DNA of 64,000 bases from a virus, in the IMG/VR virus record IMGVR_UViG_3300046524_000301, positions 1 through 64,000 of that record; one strand, 5' to 3'. Positions 8,306 through 56,849 of this stretch are shown piece by piece (the stretch's first letter is position 1; each line of letters begins with the position of its first letter). The notes beneath the pieces are model-generated. The model was not told the origin of the DNA. It was given only the letters and a program-made list of their open reading frames with translations, and did no database searches. A program made the position numbers and the translations under genes.

Positions 8306-8909
8306 TTTTATTCTCTTGTAAAAAAGTACCTACCATTGTAGCCATTTCATGAATGTAGTTCAAGTTGTTTCCTGAGTTGTGGAAAGTAATATCAAATGGG
8401 TGACAATGTCCCCAGTCAGAATATTCAGTGTGAATTGCGGCAACTCGTTTCGAATGATATGCGATACGTTCCGAGCTTCCAAGATCAGAAGGCTCCATCC
8501 GGGATAGGTATCTCTCAATGAGGACTTCGAACTCGGCCTGTACGAATATCGTAAATAGCTCAAAGCCGTTCTCATCACAGAATTCTTTAAACTGAGGTAT
8601 ACCTGAGGGCTCAACGATAACAACAGGGATTGTCCCCGATAGAATTGCGTTAGATGCGTCTTCTTTAAGGGTGCCATAAAATTGCCCACGGAAATTAACG
8701 TGTTGTACGAATTTGTCCTGTTCAAGGAGACGTTCAAAAATAGGAATGCTTGTGAAGTGATAATCGACGCCGTCCTTTTCGCCTTCTCGCATAGGACGGG
8801 TTGCTACGCTTACGAGACGGGAAAACTTCCCAGTCTCACAAAGCTTATTAAGTAGTTCAGTTTTTCCCGATCCGCTAGGACCAGTGATGGTGATTAGATG
8901 TTTAGACAT
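8295..8909 (-). CDS. Guanylate kinase-like nucleotide kinase
   Basis: 204 aa, near the usual size for GMP kinases. Starts with the P-loop GPSGSGKT (residues 10-17), followed by VSVATRPMREGEKDGVDYHF, the Arg/Tyr-rich GMP-binding segment of this family. Expected reaction: ATP-dependent phosphorylation of (d)GMP, feeding phage DNA synthesis. Its first bases lie upstream of and divergent from the sigma-factor gene. Confidence 0.85.
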   Translation of the reverse strand: MSKHLITITGPSGSGKTELLNKLCETGKFSRLVSVATRPMREGEKDGVDYHFTSIPIFERLLEQDKFVQHVNFRGQFYGTLKEDASNAILSGTIPVVIVEPSGIPQFKEFCDENGFELFTIFVQAEFEVLIERYLSRMEPSDLGSSERIAYHSKRVAAIHTEYSDWGHCHPFDITFHNSGNNLNYIHEMATMVGTFLQENKNGG

Positions 8910-8985: not shown

Positions 8986-9771
8986 ATGACAGATTTATCC
9001 AAATATTATGAGAGCATTTGCTCGCAACCCCTTCTTAACCGCGAAGAAGAATATGATTTGTTTTTAGAATACTATGATCCAGCTATTTCTAAGGCTAAAA
9101 AAGAAGCTATTAAAAATAGAATTATTCAAAGTAACTTACGTTTTGCTTTCAAACAAGCAAAATATTTTAGTAAAGGAGACCTCTACTTATTTGAAGAGTT
9201 GATCGGCGCTGCGAATGAAGGCCTGCTTGTAGGATTTGAAAAATATAAACCCACGACAGAGGTTAGATTTTTGAGCTACAGCGGGTGGTGGGTAAATCAA
9301 AGAATCCTTTATGCAATGTCAAAGGTTCGCATTGTGTCTCTTCCTATTTGGAGGCAACAGCTCGGACAACGCATTCAGAAATACATGGAAGCCAATCCTG
9401 ACAAGTGCTCTTTCGAAGACTTGAAACAGGAGTTCCCCGACGTCTCAGATAAAGACCTCAGGGAACTTTCCGAATCGAAATTCCTTACATACTACATTGA
9501 AGACATGGGCTCAGACGGACCTGAGTTCGAGATTGACCCGATTGGGACAGAAGTAGAGAGCCGAATTGACAAAGAGCGTATTCATCATATGATCGATGAA
9601 CTGCCTAGCCCGCACAAAGAAATCGTCCTCATGGCCTATGGGGTCAAAGACGGCGAGGAAAAAACTCATGCGGAGATGGCATCAAACCTTAACATCTCCA
9701 AAGATCAACTACGTGCTTATAAACGAGAAGCAATGGAGATGCTTAAGGAAAAGCTGGTTCCCGGAAAGTAA
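8986..9771 (+). CDS. Sigma70-family RNA polymerase sigma factor
   Basis: 261 aa from the ATG giving MTDLSKYYESICSQPLLN. Region 1.2-like start (QPLLNREEEYDLF) is followed by region 2 (SNLRFAFKQAKYF, ELIGAANEGLLVGFEKY, RFLSYSGWWVNQRI), which in bacteria binds the beta' clamp helices and melts the -10. Near the C-terminus is a region 4-like helix-turn-helix (LPSPHKEIVLMAYG ... ISKDQLRAYKREAMEML). An upstream in-frame ATG at 8884 exists but would overlap the divergent kinase gene. It is the only plus-strand gene in the first 22 kb. It could redirect host RNA polymerase or serve the phage-encoded beta/beta' (27784-31161, 34125-35288, 42811-44637). Confidence 0.92.
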   Translation: MTDLSKYYESICSQPLLNREEEYDLFLEYYDPAISKAKKEAIKNRIIQSNLRFAFKQAKYFSKGDLYLFEELIGAANEGLLVGFEKYKPTTEVRFLSYSGWWVNQRILYAMSKVRIVSLPIWRQQLGQRIQKYMEANPDKCSFEDLKQEFPDVSDKDLRELSESKFLTYYIEDMGSDGPEFEIDPIGTEVESRIDKERIHHMIDELPSPHKEIVLMAYGVKDGEEKTHAEMASNLNISKDQLRAYKREAMEMLKEKLVPGK

Positions 9772-10403: not shown

Positions 10404-10412
10404 CTTATACCA
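10404..10412 (-). promoter_or_regulatory. Extended -10 promoter TGGTATAAG
   Basis: Minus-strand TTTTTGGTATAAG, 14 bp after the stop of 10427-11035 and about 108 bp before the AT-hook gene. The leader between holds an AT-rich imperfect hairpin (GTATTAAT/ATCAATAC) but no gene. Confidence 0.65.
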
Positions 10413-23267: not shown

Positions 23268-23582
23268 ACCCGTACACAACTTGTAAATGTCACGCAAGTG
23301 ACTAAGAATCTTCGGAGCGTTCTCCTGACTTATGGTTGGGAGTTCAGCTCCGAATTGCATTGTGAGGTTACCAATCTTATCGATTATTGAACCTCGAATA
23401 TTCTTCTTCTGAATCAGATCCGTAGTCTTCAAGATAAGGGCTTCCAGTTCATCTAAAAAATTAGGCTTCACAAGTGGATGCGAGTGAATATAGATAAGCT
23501 CTGAAGATGGTACGTATTTGTCAGAGCCTTCGAAATAGGCTTTGATCTGTGTATTTTTAAAACTGAAATCATTGATGGGCAT
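23235..23582 (-). CDS. Hypothetical protein
   Basis: 115 aa, MPINDFSFKNTQIKAYF; no known motif. Its 3' end overlaps the convergent virion gene by 33 bp, which is uncommon in this window. Confidence 0.6.
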   Translation of the reverse strand: MPINDFSFKNTQIKAYFEGSDKYVPSSELIYIHSHPLVKPNFLDELEALILKTTDLIQKKNIRGSIIDKIGNLTMQFGAELPTISQENAPKILSHLRDIYKLCTGLLKNHNIVYA

Positions 23583-23611
23583 AAAAAATCCGGTAGTATT
23601 AATGTGAAAGA

Positions 23612-23634
23612 GAACCTGAGTTTACCCCAGGTTC
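23612..23634 (-). terminator. Hairpin after 23650-24246
   Basis: On the minus strand GAACCTG pairs with CAGGTTC (7 bp, 9-nt loop), followed by TCTTTC; a weak terminator. Confidence 0.55.
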
Positions 23635-23649
23635 CCCATTGCTACAACA

Positions 23650-24246
23650 TCACATATTCATGATGTTAGACTTATGTTTCCCCATAAGCCCAGCTGCTAC
23701 GGCAACTGTGGCTACGGTAACCCCTAAAGTCCCGAAGATCAAACCGCCCCAAAATCCAACCTTTTTGATTTTGGCGTTTTTCTTTTGGACTCTCGCCCGC
23801 TCAGCAAGTTGCTCAGGGGAGAGTTCTTGTTCGTATACGCCTTCAGCATGCTCCCTTTTACTACCAGAACTACGTTTACTCCCATAGTTAGGATTGTTAC
23901 TGTGGTCCTCATTCTCCGAGGATTGGTCGTTATTTTGACTCATAGTATTAACCTCTTCGTCGCCAATAGTAATACCAGTGGCCATACCTCTGATGTCTTC
24001 AGGATCTGTGCGAAACAGCAACTCAGCCCCCCGGCTTGCATCCTCAGACTTACCACTGCGGTCCCTACGCTTCTTAACTACGACTACTTCCCCAAACGGA
24101 TCAATCCGTTCGTGGCTACTACTTTTTCGGCGATGACGGGTTGGTACAAACCCCCCTTTATCGTAACCGATATCATCGGCAAGAGTGCTCTTTATGCTAG
24201 ATAGCTTCTCCTGCCAATCGGTGTTTTGATTACGAACCCCTGACAT
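23650..24246 (-). CDS. Tail-anchored membrane protein
   Basis: 198 aa. A long charged, Ser/Asp/Arg-rich soluble part (likely disordered) is followed by one hydrophobic span near the C-terminus (residues about 163-188, Gly/Ala/Val-rich) and a short basic tail. Architecture resembles a C-tail anchored protein. Function unknown. Confidence 0.65.
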   Translation of the reverse strand: MSGVRNQNTDWQEKLSSIKSTLADDIGYDKGGFVPTRHRRKSSSHERIDPFGEVVVVKKRRDRSGKSEDASRGAELLFRTDPEDIRGMATGITIGDEEVNTMSQNNDQSSENEDHSNNPNYGSKRSSGSKREHAEGVYEQELSPEQLAERARVQKKNAKIKKVGFWGGLIFGTLGVTVATVAVAAGLMGKHKSNIMNM

Positions 24247-25542: not shown

Positions 25543-25571
25543 TTGACCTAAACTAGAGGTCAGTTTAAAAT
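25543..25571 (+). promoter_or_regulatory. Portal-operon promoter TTGACC-N17-TAAAAT
   Basis: TTGACC at 25543-25548 and TAAAAT at 25566-25571, 17 bp apart, 28 bp before the portal ATG. The best sigma70-like member of the TAAAATA class, and divergent from the tandem minus-strand promoters. Confidence 0.75.
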
Positions 25572-25598
25572 ACGGGTATCTAACAATCTGGTCAAGAC

Positions 25599-27500
25599 AT
25601 GTCAAATAACGGTTTTTACACGCCATACCAACCTCCTCCGATTCCAGGAACATCTGGACGACTACCAGGGGATAACACGCTAGCAACTGCAAGTAGCCCG
25701 TGGTTTTCAGTCTCGAATCAATTTCTGCCTAGAAATCTGCATGACGTAATTCGTTGGGCTAAGTACATTACCGTTCAATCTCCGGTAACGACCGAAGTCA
25801 TCCGTAAATATGCTACGTATCCGATCACGGACTTTGTTATCAAAACTAAGTCTGAGGCTACTAAAAACAAGTATGAAAGCATTTTCAAAAGCTTCAAGCT
25901 TAAATCTGCTTTGCATAATATCGGTTTTGAATATTACACAGTTGGTAATGTATTCGTTTCGATTTATTTCCCAATTCATAGAACTCTGTTCTGCCCGCAT
26001 TGCAACGGCAACGTTACTGCAAAGAATGCTGAATTTACGCAATTCAAAAACTACAATTTCGTAGGCGATTGCCCATTCTGTGACTCTAAAGGCGTTACGT
26101 TTACACGTCGTGACACGAAGTCGATGAACATCGATGATATGAATTTGATTCAATGGGATCCAATCAATATCAACGTTAACTTCAATCCGATTACAGGTGA
26201 ATACGAGTACTACTACAAGATTCCGAATGACGTTAAACGTAGAATTCGTGAAGGTGACAAGCTTTTTGTTAATTCGGTTCCGTGGGGCTTTATCGAGGCT
26301 GTAAAGAATAATCAGGATTTCAAGTTTGATCCGAATAACATATTCCACTTGAAGAACCTGTCGGCAGGACAACAGATCAACGGCGTGGCTGTGCCCCCGC
26401 TTGTTTCCCTGTTCTACCTTGTGTTCTATCAAGCAACGCTTCGTAAAGCCAACGAATCTATCGCTACTGACTTTATGTCTCCGCTTCGTGTGATTTTTCC
26501 ACAAGCACAGACTGGAAACAGCGATCCGGTATCAAGCATCAGTCTTCGTAACTTCGTTGAACGGATGCAGGCTAACCTTGTCAAGCACAAACAGGATAAC
26601 AATCACGTTGTTGTAGCACCGACACCGATTGGCTACCAAGCCATTAGTGGCGAAGGTAAGAACCTATTAGTTGCTACGGAAATCCAACAAGCTGAAGATT
26701 CGATTCTTCTAGCGCTTGGCGTTTCAAGAGAATTGCTTGCAGGTACGACGAACTGGACCAGCTCCACGACTGGACTTCGCTTGCTTGAAAATACGATGCT
26801 TTGCTACACCGGACAGATTACCGAGCTTATTTCGTGGATCATGTCCCGCGTTTCCAAGTATCTAGGCATCGAAACGTGTGAAGTAGACTTGACTCCGTTT
26901 AAACTTACTGATGATCCTAATTTGCAACAGATGCTTCTGCAAACTGTACAGACAAATAATGGTTCTCTGTCGAGTCTGTACGAATCGTTCGGTATGAAAT
27001 TCGGTACTGAATTGGACAACATGCGTGAGGATGCTGTAGCCCGTGCTGTTAATGAAGTTAAGACCAAGCTCGAAGTGGATCAAAGTACGTATTTGGCTGC
27101 TAAAGAAACAGGCGATAGTTTTGACCGGAACAACGATTATAAAGTGGCCTTGGCTAAGGCTCAGCAAATCGCTGAACAGCTTTATACCGCTGATGATGGC
27201 ACAAAACGTGCTATACTTAACCGTCTAAAATTAGAAGATTATGCAATGTACATGCTGGTCGGAAAGCTTCTGGAAGAATATGCAGAAGAGCAAGCCTCTC
27301 AAGTACAGCAAGTCGGACCTGATGGTAAGCCGATTCCAGGTCAGCCTGGCCAACAAGGGCAGCCTGGACAACCGGGGCAAAGCGGTGGTGGTGCAGAACA
27401 GGAAGAAGCCACTAACGGCGCTGGTTCTGCAGAAAGTCAAAACGGATCGGGTGAAGAAAAGCAGGAAGAAACTGCTGGTGGAAACCCCGGTCAACAGTAA
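25599..27500 (+). CDS. Portal protein with zinc ribbon and collagen-like tail
   Basis: 633 aa. Length, helical composition and placement at the head of the structural operon fit a portal. Motifs typical of phage portals include ATEIQQAEDSILLALGV and ELLAGTTNWTSST. A zinc ribbon is inserted near residues 130-165 (FCPHCNGN and DCPFCDSKG). The C-terminus has short collagen-like repeats (GQPGQQGQPGQPGQ) and an acidic tail. Expected role: dodecameric vertex for DNA passage. Followed 9 bp later by 27510-27800. Confidence 0.82.
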   Translation: MSNNGFYTPYQPPPIPGTSGRLPGDNTLATASSPWFSVSNQFLPRNLHDVIRWAKYITVQSPVTTEVIRKYATYPITDFVIKTKSEATKNKYESIFKSFKLKSALHNIGFEYYTVGNVFVSIYFPIHRTLFCPHCNGNVTAKNAEFTQFKNYNFVGDCPFCDSKGVTFTRRDTKSMNIDDMNLIQWDPININVNFNPITGEYEYYYKIPNDVKRRIREGDKLFVNSVPWGFIEAVKNNQDFKFDPNNIFHLKNLSAGQQINGVAVPPLVSLFYLVFYQATLRKANESIATDFMSPLRVIFPQAQTGNSDPVSSISLRNFVERMQANLVKHKQDNNHVVVAPTPIGYQAISGEGKNLLVATEIQQAEDSILLALGVSRELLAGTTNWTSSTTGLRLLENTMLCYTGQITELISWIMSRVSKYLGIETCEVDLTPFKLTDDPNLQQMLLQTVQTNNGSLSSLYESFGMKFGTELDNMREDAVARAVNEVKTKLEVDQSTYLAAKETGDSFDRNNDYKVALAKAQQIAEQLYTADDGTKRAILNRLKLEDYAMYMLVGKLLEEYAEEQASQVQQVGPDGKPIPGQPGQQGQPGQPGQSGGGAEQEEATNGAGSAESQNGSGEEKQEETAGGNPGQQ

Positions 27501-27509
27501 GGATAAATA

Positions 27510-27800
27510 ATGGCAGCGTCTAATGGAGTTACAAACTCCGTAACAAGTAAAGAAGAGAGCATGTTTCCGGGCTTCGGCCCGAAGAAGGTCGATGAAAACG
27601 ACTTCAATAACTATCATGTTAGATATGCTCAAATCGATATCATGGATCCAGGCTCACGAGCAGAGTTGGAAATCATCGAAACTAGAGCAATTAAAAATCA
27701 AGGTGTGGTTATCCTGACTAAAGATAAGTTCACCTTCATGGACAAATACTATATGGTAGTGAGCTACCTGGAACTAGATACAAATGCCGACACCCGCTAA
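27510..27800 (+). CDS. Hypothetical protein between portal and RNAP beta
   Basis: 96 aa; centre YHVRYAQIDIMDPGSRAELE. No known motif. Its last 17 bp overlap the start of the beta gene, so translation of the polymerase subunit is coupled to this gene. Confidence 0.7.
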   Translation: MAASNGVTNSVTSKEESMFPGFGPKKVDENDFNNYHVRYAQIDIMDPGSRAELEIIETRAIKNQGVVILTKDKFTFMDKYYMVVSYLELDTNADTR

Positions 27801-30800
27801 TAACCTTCAACTAATCTTTTCGTCACCACGGGAAATTAATACCCGTGTTGATGGTTCGCTTATGCAGGGTATTCTTTCCCAGTTTCCGATCGAAGGCAAA
27901 AACTACATTTTGACCATTTCGGATCTTAAGGCTGAACCTAAAGAATTTACCCACGCCGATGAAAAGGATGCGATTTTGAAATCCAAATCGCTATCATATC
28001 CTATCAAAGGCCATATCAAGTTGATTGAAAAGGCAACGGGTAAAGTCGTTGACGAGAATAAGAACTTTTCGTTGATGGACGCTTTTTACATTACACCGAA
28101 GCACACAATGGTGTATAAAGGCAACAACTACTCAGTTGCCAACCAACTCCAGTTGAATCCTGGGGTATACACACGTAGTAAAGAAACAGGTGAACTTGAG
28201 TCACACTTTAACACGGGCTCTGGCCGAAGCTTTTCGATCACGCTTGATCCGCAGACATTCCAGTTCTCGGTTCATCCGGCAAGCTCATCTTCGTCAATTC
28301 CCCTTGGTCCGCTCGTGTCTAAGGTTTTCGGCATTGGTCTTAAAGAAGTAAGTCAATACATTCCTGCACAGGTATGGGAAGCTAATCTTGCGGCTTCGGC
28401 AGGCAAGGAAGCTAAGATCGTCAACGATCTATACTCTAAACTCGTGTCGACGGGTAAACAGAAGCCTGCAGCATCACTTGAAGAAAAGATGATGCAATTG
28501 CGTGAATCGATGGAAGCTTCGTCACTTTCTCCGCAAACGACTTTGGTTACACTTGGTAAGTCGGTTAGCTCAGTTAACTCTGATGCCATCCTTCGTGCTA
28601 TGCAAAATCTTGTTAAAGTCCATGCTGGCGATAAGCCTGAAGATAACCGAGATTCGCTACAATTCAAGCGTGTTCAGAATCTGCCTGACTTTATTACGAC
28701 TCGTTTTAACAAACACGAAATGCTGCCTAGCATTCGTCGTAAACTTCTAGCTAATTTGGATAAGACGAAAAATCCGTCAATCCGTGATGTGGTAGTAAGC
28801 AAGCCTTACAACAAGGTGATGTCAAACTACATCATTGAAAGTAACCTGGTTTCAACTCCATCGGAAACGAACCCTATCGAATCTTTGGAAAGCGTTGGTA
28901 AAGTAACAGTTCTTGGAGCCGGTGAAGGCGGTATTGCTTCTGATCGTGGTGTGCCTATGTCTGCCCGAGATATTGATCCTTCGCATCTTGGCATTATCGA
29001 TCCGAGCCGTACACCGGAATCGGGTCACGCCGGTATCGATCAACGTTTCACTATTTCTGCTCGTCGTGACGACAGCGGTAATCTATACGCTCGTGTTATC
29101 GACAAGCAAGGTAAACAGCACTATCTGTCCGTGCAGGAAATGATGACGCATACCGTCGGATTCCCGCATCAAGAAGGCAAAAAGATTGTTCAAGCTCAGG
29201 TTCACGGCGACCTGAAAGAAGTACCGGTTGGCCAAGTTGATTACTGGCTTGGCGACACGACCGACATGTACACGATTACGACTAACCTCGTACCGTTCCT
29301 GAATAGTAACCACCCGGGTCGTCTGACGATGGCGGGTAAAGCTATCCCTCAGGCCCTGTCTCTGGTCGAGCGTGAAAAACCGCTTGTCCAGACCGTTAAT
29401 GGTGCTGGAACGAGTTTCGTCAAAGCTGTAGGCCAGGTTGTAAGTACTGTCGCTCCCGTAGCAGGCATAATTTCGACTATTAACAAGACGCAGATTCACA
29501 TCAAGGATGCCGACGGTAGAACCCACAAGGTTGACCTCGTTAAGAATCTGCCATTCAACATGAAAGGTTTCCTTGACGATGAAAAGCCTTTGGTGAAGGT
29601 TGGCGATAAAGTGGATATGAATCAGCCTATCGCCGATAACAACTACACGGTTGACGGGGAACTTGCGCTTGGTAAGAATCTTGAAGTAGCTTACATGCCG
29701 TACAAGGGCTACAACCACGAAGACGGTTTAGTTATCAGCCGTTCATGTGCTGATAGTCTGAGCAGTCACCACGCATACAAGGTCGACTATTCGGTTCAGC
29801 CGATCTCGACAATGAGTAAAACCCTGGTTGTGCGTCACTTCCCAGGTAAATTCACGAAGGATCAACTGAACAACCTCGACGATCAAGGCTTCGCTAAAGT
29901 CGGTTCTATCATCAAACACGGAGACCCAGTCTACACTGTGCTTGAAAAGCGTGAACCTACGGCTGAAGATAAAATGTTGGCTCGTTTGCATAAATCGCTA
30001 GTTAGCCCGTATCGTCTTGCTACAGAACTGTGGACCCACGAAGAGAATGGGGAAGTGGTTGATGCGCATACGGAAGGTAAGAATATTCGTATTCTCGTCC
30101 GTTCTATCAAACCGCTTGAGATTGGTGACAAATTGACCGGGCTTCATGGTAACAAAGGTATTGTTTCGAAGATCCTCGAAGATCACGAAATGCCTTACAA
30201 GAAAGACGATGGTAAGCCAGTTGACATTCTACTGAATCCGGCTTCTGTTACTTCTCGTATTAACTTGGGCCAGTTGATGGAAACTGCTGCTGGTAAGATC
30301 GCAAAAGCTAAGGGTACTCCTTACTTCGTGCATAACTTTAGCAAAGGCAGCAACGTAAGCGATCTAAAGAAGGAACTTGACAGTATTGGTATTAGCGATA
30401 CCGACATGATGGTCGACCCGAAGACAGGTAAAGACCTTGGACGTATTCTTACGGGTCCACAGTACTTCCTAAAGCTTTATAAAACGACTGACCAGAACTG
30501 GTCTGCACGTAACGTTGGTAGCTACGACAACGTGCTGCAACCGCAGAAAGGCGGCGAAGAAGGTTCGAAGTCTGTCGGCTACATGGAAATGCTTGGTCTG
30601 CTTGGCTCGAATGCCCGTAAGAACCTGAAGGAAATCGCAACGCTTAAGTCTCAGGATAACTCGGAATACTGGACTCGTTTTAAAATGGGTCACGCCCTTC
30701 CGAAGCCGAAGATGACTTTTGCTACACAGAAGTTCTTCGATTATCTGAGCGGTTCGGGGATTAAGACTAGCATCAAAGACGGTAAACTTACAGCTTCTCC

Positions 30801-31161
30801 TTTGACTGACCAGGATATTATCGGAATGTCGAACGGTAAGATCGAGTCTCCAGAATTGCTGAGTGCCAAGAATCTTGAACCTGAAAAGGGCGGTCTGTAC
30901 GATCCGGCAACTACGGGTGGACTGAGAGGCAATAAGTGGACTCATTACGAATTGGCCGAAGCTCTACCGAATCCTGTGTTTGAGCGTCCGATCAAGAGTC
31001 TGCTAGGCTTGAAGTCAAGCGAATTTGACGGAATCGTTCAAGGTACTATCGGTGTTAAAAACATGGGTGACGGATCTTTTGCTTTGCATAATACGTCTGA
31101 CGGTAAGCATATTAAAACCATTAAGGTGAATAGCGCTAATGTAGCAGATGCAGGAGATTAA
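27784..31161 (+). CDS. RNA polymerase beta subunit (RpoB-like), full length
   Basis: 1125 aa, against about 1340 in E. coli RpoB. The N-terminal part has YPIKGHIKLIE ... VANQLQLNPGVYTR, aligning with the RpoB protrusion around VIVSQLHRSPGVFF. The catalytic half has PYKGYNHEDGLVIS (about residue 640; RpoB NGYNFEDS), IGDKLTGLHGNKGIVSKI (about 780; RpoB GDKMAGRHGNKG) and PVDILLNPASVTSRINLGQ (about 812). These are universal beta motifs near the active site and nascent RNA. It belongs to the late/structural operon and, with the two beta' genes, should form a two-subunit core lacking alpha and omega. Much closer to cellular beta than split phiKZ-type subunits, as judged by motifs. Confidence 0.95.
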   Translation: MPTPANNLQLIFSSPREINTRVDGSLMQGILSQFPIEGKNYILTISDLKAEPKEFTHADEKDAILKSKSLSYPIKGHIKLIEKATGKVVDENKNFSLMDAFYITPKHTMVYKGNNYSVANQLQLNPGVYTRSKETGELESHFNTGSGRSFSITLDPQTFQFSVHPASSSSSIPLGPLVSKVFGIGLKEVSQYIPAQVWEANLAASAGKEAKIVNDLYSKLVSTGKQKPAASLEEKMMQLRESMEASSLSPQTTLVTLGKSVSSVNSDAILRAMQNLVKVHAGDKPEDNRDSLQFKRVQNLPDFITTRFNKHEMLPSIRRKLLANLDKTKNPSIRDVVVSKPYNKVMSNYIIESNLVSTPSETNPIESLESVGKVTVLGAGEGGIASDRGVPMSARDIDPSHLGIIDPSRTPESGHAGIDQRFTISARRDDSGNLYARVIDKQGKQHYLSVQEMMTHTVGFPHQEGKKIVQAQVHGDLKEVPVGQVDYWLGDTTDMYTITTNLVPFLNSNHPGRLTMAGKAIPQALSLVEREKPLVQTVNGAGTSFVKAVGQVVSTVAPVAGIISTINKTQIHIKDADGRTHKVDLVKNLPFNMKGFLDDEKPLVKVGDKVDMNQPIADNNYTVDGELALGKNLEVAYMPYKGYNHEDGLVISRSCADSLSSHHAYKVDYSVQPISTMSKTLVVRHFPGKFTKDQLNNLDDQGFAKVGSIIKHGDPVYTVLEKREPTAEDKMLARLHKSLVSPYRLATELWTHEENGEVVDAHTEGKNIRILVRSIKPLEIGDKLTGLHGNKGIVSKILEDHEMPYKKDDGKPVDILLNPASVTSRINLGQLMETAAGKIAKAKGTPYFVHNFSKGSNVSDLKKELDSIGISDTDMMVDPKTGKDLGRILTGPQYFLKLYKTTDQNWSARNVGSYDNVLQPQKGGEEGSKSVGYMEMLGLLGSNARKNLKEIATLKSQDNSEYWTRFKMGHALPKPKMTFATQKFFDYLSGSGIKTSIKDGKLTASPLTDQDIIGMSNGKIESPELLSAKNLEPEKGGLYDPATTGGLRGNKWTHYELAEALPNPVFERPIKSLLGLKSSEFDGIVQGTIGVKNMGDGSFALHNTSDGKHIKTIKVNSANVADAGD

Positions 31162-31164
31162 ACG

Positions 31165-31524
31165 ATGCAGAATCCTAATCGGTTTATCAGGGGACTATCT
31201 GATATTTCAGATATTGTAGATATTCCATGTAATGACGGGCCTGAAGTAATACATAAAACAACCGTTATTCCCTTGGTGGTGCCGTCCCCTGCACCTTCTA
31301 CGGTAACTTCGATCGCATCTTTGACTCAATTTGAACAAACTCTTACCATAGACGGCGCTCAGATTTTATCCATAGGGGAAACCCCAGGATCCAATTCTAT
31401 GTTATTTATAAATGGGTTTATTCAATCGAAAACATCGTATGATACTAGCGGAGATTCTCTAATTCTCCCTTCTTCTTTGAATTTGTTTGCGGGAGACTTG
31501 ATAATATTTCTATATTTGAAATAG
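31165..31524 (+). CDS. Fibre-tip-like small protein
   Basis: 119 aa, 3 bp after the beta stop. The C-terminal segment (MLFINGFIQSKTSY ... LFAGDLIIFLYLK) shares a pattern with the end of 31609-32706 (LFLNGMLLEPGSGNDY ... LSGDKLRAYYWK), which is typical of phage fibre tips. Probably a virion adhesion or fibre accessory protein. Confidence 0.6.
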   Translation: MQNPNRFIRGLSDISDIVDIPCNDGPEVIHKTTVIPLVVPSPAPSTVTSIASLTQFEQTLTIDGAQILSIGETPGSNSMLFINGFIQSKTSYDTSGDSLILPSSLNLFAGDLIIFLYLK

Positions 31525-31544
31525 TCTGTTGCGGATTCTAAAAT
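31516..31544 (+). promoter_or_regulatory. Fibre-cassette promoter TTGAAA-N17-TAAAAT
   Basis: TTGAAA at 31516-31521, overlapping the stop region of 31165-31524, and TAAAAT at 31539-31544, 17 bp apart. The terminator at 31558-31587 lies just downstream, so the first bases of this transcript carry the hairpin. Confidence 0.65.
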
Positions 31545-31557
31545 AATAGATGTAGCT

Positions 31558-31587
31558 AAGGCCCGGCTAATATAGGGCCTTTCTTTT
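31558..31587 (+). terminator. Rho-independent terminator after the beta unit
   Basis: AAGGCCC pairs with GGGCCTT (7 bp, 10-nt loop), followed by TCTTTT. Confidence 0.75.
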
Positions 31588-31608
31588 AAAAACAAAGGAA
31601 AGCCTTAT

Positions 31609-32706
31609 ATGGCCCAATCTCTAATTCGTGGCTCGACACAGATAATGGCCGGGACAATCCCGGCTTCAGCTTTTGTGTCGAGCCTTAATCTTCCCACTTC
31701 ACAACTTCAAGACGGAGCAACGTTTATTCGTTCGACCGGTTCAGTTGCGATGGGAGCTTCGCTCAGTATGGGCGGATTTACAATCACAAACCTCGGTACC
31801 CCTGTCAACGGAACCGATAGTGCTACAAAATCTTATGTTGATGCTCTGGCAAATGGCCTTAGCTTCAAGAATGCTGTACGTGCTTTAGCTGCTGCAAACG
31901 TTACGCTTACTGGTACTCAGACCATCGACGGCGTAGCTCTCGCTGTTAATGATCGTGTGCTTCTAACTGCGCAGACAACAGGCTCACAGAACGGTCTATG
32001 GACGGTTCAGACGGGCTCGTGGACTCGTCCTTCAGACTGGGCTGCAGCAACGACACAAAAGGAAGGAGCGTACGTTCTCGTCGATCCTGATGGCACTACG
32101 TACAAGAATAGTAAATGGTACTGTACTAACACCGGCACAATCACGGTTGATACAACTTCTACAGCCTGGGTTCAGGATACATCAGGCGCTTCATATAGTA
32201 ATGGCCAGGGTCTTTCGCTTACAGGCTCTACTTTTGCTGTGAAGCTCGGTAACGGTATGACTTTCGATGGTTCGAACAACGTTACGCTTTCTCCTGCTAC
32301 TGGGGGGTTGCTAACTGTTGCGGCTGGCGGAGTAGGTATTACCAACTCTTCTTCTGCGGCTCAGCTAATTATTTCCAACGCTTCAAACCAGGCTGCATGG
32401 GTTAGCGCAAGTGGTGACGCAACTATCTCGAATGCTGGCGTTTTCACTGTTAACAACACTGCTGGTACTGGTTTCACGAAGTACACGAATATGGTTAACA
32501 ACGAAACTCCTGGCGGAACGATTAACGGTGCGAACACTGCATTTACGCTTGTCAGCACTCCGCAGGTTTCATCTCTTGAGCTTTTCTTGAACGGTATGCT
32601 ACTTGAACCGGGATCAGGAAACGATTATACTATTAGCGGAACAGCCATAACTATGCTGTTCGCTCCGCTGAGCGGGGACAAGCTAAGAGCATATTACTGG
32701 AAATGA
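31609..32706 (+). CDS. Tail fibre-like protein
   Basis: 365 aa, Thr/Ser/Ala/Gly/Asn-rich. The N-terminal region contains GFTITNLGTPVNGTDSATKS, the repeat-like motif of phage fibres (GFxITNLGxPVxxTDAATK). A WTVQTGSWTRPSDW segment and a terminal LFLNGMLL ... YYWK domain follow. Expected role: host attachment. Confidence 0.85.
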   Translation: MAQSLIRGSTQIMAGTIPASAFVSSLNLPTSQLQDGATFIRSTGSVAMGASLSMGGFTITNLGTPVNGTDSATKSYVDALANGLSFKNAVRALAAANVTLTGTQTIDGVALAVNDRVLLTAQTTGSQNGLWTVQTGSWTRPSDWAAATTQKEGAYVLVDPDGTTYKNSKWYCTNTGTITVDTTSTAWVQDTSGASYSNGQGLSLTGSTFAVKLGNGMTFDGSNNVTLSPATGGLLTVAAGGVGITNSSSAAQLIISNASNQAAWVSASGDATISNAGVFTVNNTAGTGFTKYTNMVNNETPGGTINGANTAFTLVSTPQVSSLELFLNGMLLEPGSGNDYTISGTAITMLFAPLSGDKLRAYYWK

Positions 32707-32942
32707 CAAATAATACAAACGTAGTACCTGAACAAGACGCCTGGCTCGGAAAGATGCAAAACGAGCTGGGCGTTTTATATTCTAACGTGTGGATGTTGGA
32801 AATTCAAAAGGAGCGCCTGACTAATCGTGTTCTTCAAGATGCGGAACTTATTGCCCATCTTAAGGAAAGAATTCTAAAATTAGAGCAGGCTAATACAGAG
32901 CTAAAAGAGACTATTCAGCCTGAACGACGAAAGAGAGAATAA
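32703..32942 (+). CDS. Small coiled-coil protein
   Basis: 79 aa, overlapping the fibre stop by 4 bp (ATGA). Heptad-like leucine and charged pattern (ERILKLEQANTELKETIQ) suggests a coiled coil, perhaps a fibre chaperone or assembly factor. Confidence 0.65.
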   Translation: MTNNTNVVPEQDAWLGKMQNELGVLYSNVWMLEIQKERLTNRVLQDAELIAHLKERILKLEQANTELKETIQPERRKRE

Positions 32943-33473
32943 ATGGCACGTACACAGATTAATCTTGGAGCCCAAGGCGCTGACGGAACTGTATTAAGAG
33001 CAGATCTGAATACCACGACCGCAGGAAGCGCTGTTATTACAAAGGTGCTGGCTGGAACTGGTATTTCAATTTCAGCGTTCACTGGTGCTGATTCTGGTAC
33101 TGGCGATGTAACTCTAGCTGCAGGCCTTCCGGGTACGCCCTTTGATATAATTCTCTTCATTCAAGGCGGTTTTGCAAATGCCGAAACACTTACTTCTATA
33201 AATACTAGAAGAACATTCTCGTTACCGGCAAACCTTACTGGGAGTGTAGTAGACGCTAAAACTGCTGCTACTGCATCGACAACTATTACGTTCACAAAGA
33301 ACGGCACATCTATCGGAACTGCCGTATTTGCAGCAAGCGGTACTGCAGCTACTCTTACCTTTTCATCAACTGTAAGTTTTGCAATCGGTGATATCTTCGA
33401 AATCGTGGGACCAGCTACGGCAGATACTACGCTTGCAAACGTACGATTTAACCTAGTAGGAACAAGAACGTAA
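32943..33473 (+). CDS. Fibre-like virion protein
   Basis: 176 aa. Low-complexity Thr/Ala/Gly start (GADGTVLRADLNTTTAGSAV) and a beta-rich C-terminal domain with FSSTVSFAIGDIFEIVGP, like phage fibre and baseplate decoration domains. Ends by overlapping the next start (TAATG). Confidence 0.65.
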   Translation: MARTQINLGAQGADGTVLRADLNTTTAGSAVITKVLAGTGISISAFTGADSGTGDVTLAAGLPGTPFDIILFIQGGFANAETLTSINTRRTFSLPANLTGSVVDAKTAATASTTITFTKNGTSIGTAVFAASGTAATLTFSSTVSFAIGDIFEIVGPATADTTLANVRFNLVGTRT

Positions 33474-34105
33474 TGGGTACACTTACTGGATCTATTGCAG
33501 TACTTACTGGCACTGAAACTTTCAGTCTGGTGAGTCCTGTACAAACTGACTGGATTGAATTTGCACAAACTCTTACTTACAATAGAAAGAGCGGAGGAGG
33601 TTCCACTATAAGTTCCCCGACATTGCTAGGCACTGGCGGAACTATTAGCGGGTTCGGATTTGGTTTGGGATATACCTGGACCGGAGGCACTCCAGTAGCT
33701 TCTGGAACAGCTGTTAGGGAAGGGATCGGAGTAGATCACACTACGGCAATAGTCGGTCAGGGCCTTAGATTCACTATGCCTGCGGATATGACTTCTCGTA
33801 CTGCTGTAATCTATTGGGGAACGTATAGTGGTGCGGGTCGATTAACTGCTACTTTGCTAGATGGCAGCGCACAGCCTTTTATTCAAAATGAACCTGCTAC
33901 CAGTCCAGGCGGGCAGTCTACATACTATTCTTCAACTCTTACTTATAACGCAAACTCGCCCAATCAAAAATTGCAGATAGATTTAACGCTTACGCAGATA
34001 GGCCTTGACAATGATGGAAACGTGTGGATAGGGGCAGTTAAATACCTAAACGGTACAGCATCTAAAATTCCACGAGTAAGACGAATTTTGACTATCAGCT
34101 CTTAA
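33473..34105 (+). CDS. Fibre or adhesin-like virion protein
   Basis: 210 aa, Ser/Thr/Gly-rich, beta-type sequence with WIEFAQTLTYNRKSGGG and a conserved-looking RFTMPADMTSRTAVIYWGTY. Carbohydrate-binding-like composition, but no family assigned. Last gene of the fibre cassette. Confidence 0.6.
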   Translation: MGTLTGSIAVLTGTETFSLVSPVQTDWIEFAQTLTYNRKSGGGSTISSPTLLGTGGTISGFGFGLGYTWTGGTPVASGTAVREGIGVDHTTAIVGQGLRFTMPADMTSRTAVIYWGTYSGAGRLTATLLDGSAQPFIQNEPATSPGGQSTYYSSTLTYNANSPNQKLQIDLTLTQIGLDNDGNVWIGAVKYLNGTASKIPRVRRILTISS

Positions 34106-34124: not shown

Positions 34125-35288
34125 ATGAATAAACCTAATGACACAATTGATACAGATAGCCTTGCGGTGTCTGGCGATGCTTTGCACCAAATGCTTTCTA
34201 CGATTGACGTAGATGCACAGATTAAAGCTTTGAAAGCGGAAATTAAAGAAACCAAGTCCCCATCTAAAAAAGACGCAATCGTAAAGAAGATCAAATACCT
34301 TGCAGGTTTGCAGAAAGTGGATCTACGTCCTGAAACTGCCTACGTCATTCACAACGTTCCAGTTACTCCTCCGCTAGTACGTCCAAGTATTCCGATGGGC
34401 GGTAATCGTATTGAATTCGCTGACGTTAATACGCTTTACCGTGACCACATGCTTGTTAATAACGGCTTGAAAGGCAACGTAGACATATTGCCTCACGACA
34501 TGCTGATCAATGAACGTAAAGATGCCTACAACGGCCTTAAGGCTGTGTTCGGTCTTGGAGACGCAGTATCAGGTGGCGCTCGTGGAAAGGAGTTGAAGGG
34601 ATATATCCAGCAAATCGCTGGTGATACTGGCCCTAAAGGGGGTTTCTTCCATAACAAGCTACTGAAGAAGAAGCAAGACTTCTCTGGCCGTGCAACGATT
34701 TATGCTGAGCCTAATCTCGGCTTTAACGAAGTTGCTGCTCCGAAAGACATGCTTTGGACGATGTATGAATTTCATATTATTCGTGACCTGGTCCGTAACG
34801 GTTACGATATGATGGCTGCACGAAAAGCTGTTGCAAATCGTGATGTTGGTGCGACGAATAGCTTTAATAAAATGATCAAGCAGGTTCCGGTCATTCTTAA
34901 CCGTGCTCCGACTCTGATGAGAACGAACATTACTGCTCACTATCCTGTGCCTATTGAAGGTAAAACGCTTGGTATTAATCCATTGCACTTGCCCATGTAT
35001 GCAGGCGACTTTGACGGTGACGCCTTGACTTTGCACGTTCCTATGACCCCAGAAGCTGTTGAAGAAGCTAAGCAAAAGCTCCTACCACAACAGCACATTT
35101 ACGATTACCGTAAAGGTCAAGGTGCTTCGATGGTTGCTCCAGGTCACGAAGCAGTTATTGGATCTATGGCTTTGACTGAGCCAGATATGGATCAAGCTCC
35201 GAGAACATTCGCTTCTGAAGCTGAAGTACTGGCTGCGCTTGAGCGTGGCGAGATCAACGATAGAACGCCTATTAAAATCGGAAGCTAA
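34125..35288 (+). CDS. RNA polymerase beta' subunit, N-terminal half (split RpoC)
   Basis: 387 aa. Begins in register with RpoC about residue 165 (ALHQMLSTIDVDAQIKALKA), so the RpoC N-terminus with its zinc-binding domain is absent. Present in order: the lid/rudder region (VPVTPPLVRPSIPMGG), clamp helices (EFADVNTLYRDHMLVNNGLK), KKKQDFSGRATIYAEP, LNRAPTLMRTNI, and the catalytic D295-F-D297-G-D299 that binds the active-site magnesium. Stops at a position equal to RpoC about 550. The rest is in 42811-44637. Assembly of the two halves with beta should rebuild the catalytic core. Confidence 0.95.
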   Translation: MNKPNDTIDTDSLAVSGDALHQMLSTIDVDAQIKALKAEIKETKSPSKKDAIVKKIKYLAGLQKVDLRPETAYVIHNVPVTPPLVRPSIPMGGNRIEFADVNTLYRDHMLVNNGLKGNVDILPHDMLINERKDAYNGLKAVFGLGDAVSGGARGKELKGYIQQIAGDTGPKGGFFHNKLLKKKQDFSGRATIYAEPNLGFNEVAAPKDMLWTMYEFHIIRDLVRNGYDMMAARKAVANRDVGATNSFNKMIKQVPVILNRAPTLMRTNITAHYPVPIEGKTLGINPLHLPMYAGDFDGDALTLHVPMTPEAVEEAKQKLLPQQHIYDYRKGQGASMVAPGHEAVIGSMALTEPDMDQAPRTFASEAEVLAALERGEINDRTPIKIGS

Positions 35289-42758: not shown

Positions 42759-42767
42759 CTTATACCA
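42759..42767 (-). promoter_or_regulatory. Extended -10 promoter TGGTATAAG
   Basis: Minus-strand AATGGTATAAG, 43 bp before 42716; back to back with the plus-strand TAAAAT at 42778-42783. Confidence 0.65.
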
Positions 42768-42777
42768 TTAAAGTCGC

Positions 42778-42783
42778 TAAAAT
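42778..42783 (+). promoter_or_regulatory. TAAAATA-class promoter of beta'-C
   Basis: GCTAAAATAGG with no convincing -35 (TGTACT at 42755-42760). Transcription from here would start near 42790, inside the hairpin at 42785-42804. Confidence 0.45.
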
Positions 42784-42784
42784 A

Positions 42785-48187: not shown

Positions 48188-48332
48188 ATACCTAGAAAAA
48201 ATAGCTGCTAGAAAGAAAGGAGGCCAGCTCCAGGTACGGGCTGGTCAGAAGCCCCTTAAGGTTCCGAAGAGTAAGCCTTTCATGAGTCTCAAGACTAAAA
48301 TAGTGAAGACCAGTAAAGGTCGTAAAGGATAA
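48180..48332 (+). CDS. 50-aa basic protein with tag MNKYLEKIA
   Basis: Exact tag MNKYLEKIA followed by a basic stretch (ARKKGGQLQVRAGQKPLK) ending KTSKGRKG. Too short for usual gene calls, but its ATG overlaps the upstream stop. The Lys/Arg-rich remainder could bind DNA, as expected for an internal head peptide. Confidence 0.7.
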   Translation: MNKYLEKIAARKKGGQLQVRAGQKPLKVPKSKPFMSLKTKIVKTSKGRKG

Positions 48333-55955: not shown

Positions 55956-56849
55956 ATGAGCGCATATTCGACAGAAACCGTAAACGTACAATTCCTGAAT
56001 CAATCTTTCCTCGACAAGATTGACCAAGGTCACACTAAAGAAGCTTCAGCTGCTATGTCAGCTTTCGTACGTCAGAAGCTTCGTGAAGACGGCTTTACCC
56101 GTAAGATTCTTACCCCGGTTCAAATCACAGCTTCAGAGCTGGATCGCCAACTGACGGAAGAGCCGACGGTTATCGTTGAAAAAGAACCGGATTCGGTTGC
56201 AGCTACTGCTCCATTCCTGGGCCGTCCGGAAATTCGTTACTGGAAAACTTCACGTTATCCGGTGACTTTCCAAAAGATCATGTCGCAAGATTTCCGCAAG
56301 AGCAAGTTCGAACTCGCTACGTATCGTACCGACATTCGCACGATCCTGCAGGAAAACAGCGTTAAGGATATCCAAGAGCAAGAAGACGTAAACTTTTACA
56401 ACAACATTCTGTCAATCGCTACGGCGAACAGCAATGTTCACACCATCGGTGGCGGCTTCACGAAAGCTAACCTGATGGCTGGTATTAAGTTCATGCTTCT
56501 GAATAAGCTGCCGGTTGGTTGTATCCTTATGACGCAATCGATGTATGCTGATCTGCTGACTTTTGCCGCAACTGACGTGGGTTCGCCTGCCGCTTCGGAT
56601 CTGTTCCGTGGTGAAGGTACGCTCGATACGTTCTTCGGTTACAAGATCATCACGACGAACAAGGCTAACATCCTCCCGACGAACCAAGCACTTGTGTTTG
56701 CTCCGCAGAACTACCTAGGTCAGTTCTATGAGTTGCAAGCTCCTACGGTCTTCCTGAAGACTGAAGCAGACATTATCGAATTCCACGCATACGAAGCTGT
56801 AGGCGCAGGTATCGGTAACGTGAACGGTGCAGTTGTTCTAAACTTCTAA
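55956..56849 (+). CDS. Major capsid protein
   Basis: 297 aa. Placed after protease, scaffold and decoration genes; beta/alpha mix and segments such as EIRYWKTSRYPVTFQKI, YRTDIRTILQEN and ITTNKANILPTNQA fit an HK97-fold capsid of large myoviruses. N-terminal HTKEASAAM (residues 26-34) contains a K-x-A site where maturation cleavage may occur. No tag. Followed by a strong terminator. Confidence 0.82.
   Translation: MSAYSTETVNVQFLNQSFLDKIDQGHTKEASAAMSAFVRQKLREDGFTRKILTPVQITASELDRQLTEEPTVIVEKEPDSVAATAPFLGRPEIRYWKTSRYPVTFQKIMSQDFRKSKFELATYRTDIRTILQENSVKDIQEQEDVNFYNNILSIATANSNVHTIGGGFTKANLMAGIKFMLLNKLPVGCILMTQSMYADLLTFAATDVGSPAASDLFRGEGTLDTFFGYKIITTNKANILPTNQALVFAPQNYLGQFYELQAPTVFLKTEADIIEFHAYEAVGAGIGNVNGAVVLNF

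Follow-up and report, generated by a model that had tools for sequence, protein, structure and literature searches.

Published reviews describe phages that encode a multisubunit RNA polymerase (RNAP) without sigma homologues, and jumbo phages that bear a sigma factor without an RNAP (PMC7598289, PMC7824862, PMC13282480). In phiKZ and AR9, the promoter-specificity subunits of the non-virion RNAP, gp68 and gp226, respectively, occupy the place of sigma and share fold elements with it without sequence similarity to sigma; these proteins are structural sigma homologues, so that the term sigma-independent, which an earlier note on this DNA used for phiKZ-type enzymes, does not hold (PMC7618050, PMC9209446). 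Here, we analysed a stretch of 64,000 nucleotides (the window), which is part of a 72,568-base IMG/VR record (IMGVR_UViG_3300046524_000301), together with about 40 related IMG/VR records and the named relatives Salmonella phage Arash (OQ632216) and Vibrio phages D69, D148 and D181. We found that this lineage pairs a sigma70-type sigma, here called sigmaA, with a multisubunit RNAP, contrary to the reviews, and that isolated Salmonella and Vibrio phages are among its members, which makes the lineage open to bench testing. Gene annotations and the Arash proteome are already public, and in the searchable literature we found no paper that unites the RNAP, the two sigmas and the two promoter classes described below. 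Phage T4 offers another comparison, as its late sigma gp55, of a type that has sigma region 2 only and depends on the sliding clamp, uses TATAAATA promoters and appropriates the host core, T4 having no RNAP. The sigmaA gene, the RNAP genes and the associated structural genes of the window are as follows:

8986 to 9771, plus strand: sigmaA, a factor of the sigma70 family that has regions 2 and 4, a weak region 1.2 and an RpoS-like linker, with Pfam, PHROG, PDB and AlphaFold matches
25599 to 27500, plus strand: portal protein, heading the beta gene run
27784 to 31161, plus strand: beta subunit of the RNA polymerase, continued at its C-terminus by the first part of beta'; the catalytic GDKLTGLHGNKG and the flap-tip helix TAEDKMLARLHKS are retained
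31165 to 34105, plus strand: tail-fibre-like genes, where Arash has a continuous beta-beta' frame
34125 to 35288, plus strand: middle part of beta', containing the catalytic YAGDFDGD and, at residues ~97-143, the clamp helices
42811 to 44637, plus strand: C-terminal part of beta' (Rpb1 domain 5)
55956 to 56849, plus strand: probable major capsid protein, from a weak Phage_capsid match that is under the cut-off

The sigmaA protein (P0001) has 261 amino acids from an ATG start; a longer frame is possible from a GTG at 8884, and the starts of the relatives lie near the ATG at 8986. In the Pfam search, region 2 (Sigma70_r2, PF04542), which in this family serves to bind the core and to recognise and melt the -10 element, scored 28.8 bits against a cut-off of 24, and region 4 (Sigma70_r4, PF04545), which contacts the -35 element and the flap, scored 25.8 bits against a cut-off of 24.1, while region 1.2 scored 12.7 bits, under its cut-off of 22. 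Region 3 gave no Pfam call, and the AlphaFold model (pLDDT 81, with a disordered linker at 167-191) has helices at 121-163. In addition, sigmaA matched PHROG 351 ('sigma factor', E=9.8e-25), its best PDB match by sequence was P. aeruginosa RpoS (E=4.5e-16, residues 7-257), and the model matched sigma70-family chains, with the best among the matches listed at E=3.7e-10 and a probability of 1.00. Taken together, these results show that sigmaA is a genuine sigma70-family factor, which bears out the earlier reading of this gene as a sigma70 protein for regions 2 and 4, with the region 1.2 that was also named remaining under the cut-off. Like the bacterial RpoS/SigA group, sigmaA combines regions 2 and 4 with the W433/W434 dyad (Y430 is also retained), an RpoS-like length and a fold match; unlike that group, it forms a separate phage clade, has no region 1.1 and is encoded beside a phage core polymerase. 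Region 4 is more diverged in the Arash and Vibrio orthologues, and all 26/26 sigmaA sequences have L in place of S428, a residue of the T-7 pocket. As in AR9 and phiKZ, a sigma-like subunit thus accompanies a phage multisubunit RNAP; unlike gp226 and gp68, sigmaA is recognisable as sigma70 by its sequence, with canonical sigma70 regions, and the genome therefore differs from those of phiKZ-type jumbo phages in having a recognisable sigma gene.

The phage polymerase is complete, with beta, the middle part of beta' and the C-terminal part of beta' all encoded in the window. The middle part matches bacterial beta' at E~1e-47 over a span that includes the clamp helices, which align with E. coli beta' ~260-309, and the clamp helices reported by the earlier note are thus confirmed. 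Their conservation within the family (0.625) is not higher than that of the rest of beta' (0.675). An AlphaFold model of the isolated beta' middle part was discarded as evidence, its pLDDT being 62.6 overall and 50-60 at the clamp helices. The alpha subunit (PF01193) was not found in the genomes of six relatives; as in the phiKZ-type two-RNAP system, beta and beta' homologues occur without alpha and the polymerase is present in virions (Arash, PMC10585845). The window shares its gene set with Arash (38.9% identity for sigma, 54% for beta and 53% for beta'), but beta-beta' forms one reading frame in Arash, as it does in Vibrio phage D181 and the distant clade, whereas in the window this frame is broken by ~3 kb of tail-fibre-like genes. 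Variants of the frame were also seen in two other records. In G039, the beta-beta' frame (L086, from 10152, 1815 aa) has an apparent intein in beta (TPE/CYDAMTEVF ... WSGN/SFKVG). In G031, beta, beta' and the beta' C-terminus lie in a single frame of 2463 aa on the minus strand (L088, from 4726), with an apparent intein adjoining the catalytic NADFDGD.

The IMG/VR scans returned 43 beta' loci and 35 sigma loci. Of 45 records, 36 contained sigmaA and 44 contained beta', and the beta' gene was present in 35/36 of the sigmaA records, the one sigma-only record being a 76 kb fragment. When the count was limited to RNAP records with a length of 120 kb or more, sigmaA was present in 20/21, a number that takes in a deeply divergent clade with a sigma only 26% identical, and the exception was G031. 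The fragments G006, G007, G009, G011, G013, G016, G027 and G030 have no sigmaA, an absence that is uninformative in incomplete records. As controls, phiKZ, AR9, phiR1-37, YerA41 and Carin-5 contained PF00562 and no PF04542 above cut-off, and seven sigma-bearing phages contained no PF00562, which agrees with the published dichotomy between RNAP and sigma (PMC7598289, PMC7824862). In a tree with a sample of sigmas from bacteria and from other phages, the phage sigmaA sequences grouped in a single, separate clade (support 100/98, subject to a long-branch warning). The distances of sigmaA and beta' agree (Spearman 0.93 overall and 0.84 inside the close family), which is expected for genes that share a genome and shows only that the pair was not exchanged. 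Hence, apart from the 76 kb fragment, sigmaA always occurs with the RNAP and is co-inherited with it, as a dedicated sigma would be.

A second sigma-like protein, sigmaB, is the 234 aa gp10 of Arash, with Pfam Sigma70_r3 above cut-off and a partial r2. In Arash, D181 and G031, its gene sits among virion genes. The Vibrio phages also conserve it (44%), and it was found in 19/21 of the RNAP records that reach 120 kb, G031 included; it is absent from the record that contains the window, which is itself a fragment. The sigmaB loci are as follows:

Arash OQ632216, 11892 to 12596 (L095): sigmaB
Vibrio phage D181, 10995 to 11684 (L096): sigmaB
G031 (L089): sigmaB

Mass spectrometry of Arash particles (Yousefi et al. 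2023, PMC10585845) detected gp206 (beta-beta') most, with 3516 spectra, along with gp216 (beta' C, 1210 spectra), the neighbouring helicase gp217 (1148 spectra) and gp10 (467 spectra, 24 unique peptides). The sigmaA orthologue of Arash, gp196, is missing from the virion protein list, which is not proof of absence (PMC10585845). Spectra per residue, calculated from the published table and the annotated lengths, were ~2.3 for gp206, ~2.0 for gp216, ~2.4 for gp217 and ~2.0 for gp10, and these similar values would fit a packaged complex, as a rough estimate only, because the preparation held probable non-virion enzymes too, according to its authors (PMC10585845). Taken together, sigmaB is a better candidate than sigmaA for the constant partner of the polymerase. 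One PF00562 match each was found in Arash, D181, G004, G037 and G031, so that the family differs from the phiKZ-type system, which has two RNAPs, in combining a single RNAP with two sigma-like proteins, and from phiKZ and AR9 in apparently having two sigmas for one polymerase. A second small sigma-like protein is also a likeness to T4 and its gp55; unlike T4, which relies on the host core, the sigmaA family encodes its own RNAP.

Two promoter classes recur across the family: class 1 (TGNTATAAG) lies before minus-strand genes, and class 2 (TAAAATA) lies before structural and polymerase genes. In the window, the sites are as follows:

10404 to 10412, minus strand: class 1 promoter-like TGGTATAAG
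1622, 5454, 13749, 14362, 15895, 19477, 24933, 25424, 25501, 36238, 42759 and 57657, minus strand: further class 1 sites
39304, plus strand: the sole listed plus-strand class 1 site
25566 to 25572, plus strand: class 2 TAAAATA, 33 nt before the portal gene
42778 to 42784, plus strand: class 2 promoter-like TAAAATA, 33 nt upstream of the gene for the C-terminal part of beta' (34 nt in Arash)
48296 to 48302, plus strand: class 2 TAAAATA, preceding a structural-region gene
22030, 31539, 45452, 50340, 55426 and 59008, plus strand: further class 2 TAAAATA sites

The sequence TTGGTATAAG occurs in the window at 21 sites with at most one mismatch, compared to 3.9 expected (0/100 shuffles). Enrichment of TAAAATA over the whole window was rejected (17 vs 12.6, not significant); counted strand-specifically upstream of genes, TAAAATA occurs 12 times, compared to a shuffle mean of 1.9 and a largest shuffle value of 6. 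For the window's record, G004, Arash and D181, respectively, TGNTATAAG was found upstream of genes in the right orientation at 13, 20, 7 and 17 sites (shuffle means 0.1 to 0.5), and TAAAATA at 12, 12, 7 and 15 sites (about 1 to 3.4). In these four genomes, class 1 was found before minus-strand genes only and class 2 mostly before plus-strand structural genes; the split by gene strand was clear in three of them (Fisher 6.7e-5, 9.3e-8 and 2e-6) and not significant in Arash (p=0.19). Class 1 has G at position -7 in 57/66 sites, often with a TCAAT element ~21-23 bases upstream of the -12 position. No motif stood out clearly when G037, a distant clade that is GC-rich, was searched. Because TAAAATA is found 33 or 34 bases before beta' C and before the portal gene of the window, the polymerase fits the class 2 (late) pattern, and TAAAATA resembles the late promoters of T4 gp55 in being a single AT-rich element. 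At 42759-42784 of the window and upstream of beta' C in Arash, a class 1 site (minus strand) and a class 2 site (plus strand) stand back to back at divergent gene starts.

In the window and in Arash, the sigmaA gene itself stands alone on the plus strand, but in Vibrio phage D181 it lies within a run of minus-strand genes. In most relatives neither phage motif is found upstream of it, which agrees with the independent control proposed from its isolated orientation. A conserved host-type promoter (TTGACT-17-TACTAT) is present in the Arash clade, while the window's own sigmaA upstream sequence showed no significant host promoter; a host-type promoter is clear only in some clades.

We compared the interface of sigmaA with the core using the sigma-clamp contact residues from PMC8321222. 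The sigmaA protein is unlike E. coli at the clamp-helix interface (RpoD 406 and 407), where it has small residues, and in the T-7 pocket (386 and 428), and beta' is without R275 in all members. Covariation at this interface was rejected as evidence of a dedicated pair, as bacterial sigmas with S/A at 406, A at 407, F at 386 and I at 428 occur with R275 kept in beta'. In Aquificota, Latescibacterota and Gemmatimonadota, most of the sigmaA interface changes recur in sigmas that go with a canonical beta' clamp helix, which shows that the interface does not discriminate and that sigmaA could still bind the host core; the core-binding residues of sigmaA are thus not matched to the phage core in a way that sets it apart from host-binding sigmas. 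The earlier note had suggested that the phage polymerase could use a dedicated sigma. This suggestion is supported in part: it is favoured by the co-occurrence, the congruent trees, the single sigma clade and the kept docking sites, and is weakened by interface residues that are also compatible with the host core. On this evidence sigmaA probably acts with the phage core, and we infer that it binds this core and not that of the host. It is rather unlikely that sigmaA instead takes over the host core for TAAAATA promoters and leaves the phage polymerase with sigmaB as its sole partner. Phage sigmas commonly serve the host core, as in the sigma-bearing phages without an RNAP (PMC7598289), and a host role would also fit the host-type promoter upstream of sigmaA in the Arash clade, the T4 Srd-type anti-sigma annotated in Vibrio phage D181 and the compatibility of the sigmaA interface residues with a bacterial core. 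However, one fragment aside, every sigmaA found came from a phage that has the RNAP, and both sigma docking modules, the clamp helices and the flap tip, are kept in the phage RNAP.

The earlier note had also named both TAAAATA and TGNTATAAG-type sites as possible targets of sigmaA; both classes proved to be real and enriched upstream of genes, but they probably belong to two different sigmas, with TAAAATA the likelier class for sigmaA. In G031, the RNAP and sigmaB are present, and sigmaA was not detected, a search with a broader 19-row profile included. Upstream of G031 genes, GGTATAA was found 12 times compared to 1.1 expected (shuffle maximum 4), and TAAAATA showed no excess (3 vs 4.6 expected). 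Together with the Arash virion data, this pattern points to sigmaB as the reader of class 1 and to sigmaA as that of class 2, and it is quite likely that sigmaA reads TAAAATA and not TGNTATAAG, a conclusion that rests on one distant, possibly incomplete genome. The TCAAT element of class 1 is -35-like and could be used by a sigma that bears region 4, which counts against this assignment. If the classes were swapped, with sigmaA on the phage core reading TGNTATAAG and sigmaB reading TAAAATA, the W-dyad and region 4 of sigmaA would suit a bipartite extended -10 promoter with TCAAT, and the frequent G at -7 of class 1 could be matched to the S428L change of sigmaA, S428 being mostly kept in sigmaB. 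This link between G-7 and S428L as evidence for sigmaA on class 1 was weakened by the bacterial sigmas with I at 428 and by G031, which without sigmaA keeps GGTATAA and has no TAAAATA excess. Moreover, early promoters would be best read by the contents of the virion, which include gp10 and not gp196, and TAAAAT fits TANNNT, the pattern read by bacterial sigmas, so that a swap of the classes appears quite unlikely. A further explanation, that the host sigma70 holoenzyme reads class 1 as an extended -10 promoter and that sigmaA is minor or accessory, draws on the resemblance of TGNTATAA to an extended -10 element and on the presence of GGTATAA in G031, which is without sigmaA. This explanation is very improbable given the conserved departures from the host consensus, with G at -7 and TCAAT for TTGACA, and the RNAP and sigmaB found in virions.

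We therefore prefer a joint reading, to which we give nearly an even chance, in which one polymerase uses virion sigmaB for early promoters and sigmaA for the switch to TAAAATA. The polymerase and sigmaB (of the Arash gp10 type) are late products and are found in virions by mass spectrometry in Arash; they would probably be injected and would then read the early minus-strand TGNTATAAG promoters. The sigmaA protein would probably be synthesised during infection, and in some clades a host-type promoter would drive its gene. Its region 2 is predicted to dock on the beta' clamp helices of the phage core and its region 4 on the beta flap tip, and sigmaA would then switch the phage core to the TAAAATA promoters before the polymerase, portal and capsid genes. 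Such an arrangement suggests that the virus changes gene classes through sigma swapping on its own polymerase. More tentatively, and with rather less than an even chance, it would amount to a bacterium-like form of phage transcription, in which one multisubunit polymerase with two exchangeable sigma70-type factors replaces the phiKZ-type scheme of two polymerases. The lineage may be an intermediate stage that links bacterial sigma with sigma-like subunits as unrecognisable as those of phiKZ and AR9.

Two minor observations concern related phages. The annotated T4 Srd-type anti-sigma of Vibrio phage D181 (OZ196140) lies at 23371-23985 in a phage that bears an RNAP, which hints at host RNAP control. 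Outside the family, Vibrio phage 1.031.O (MG592415; loci 72927-73583 and 86381-90172) is possibly another case in which a weak sigma match accompanies a beta'-like protein.
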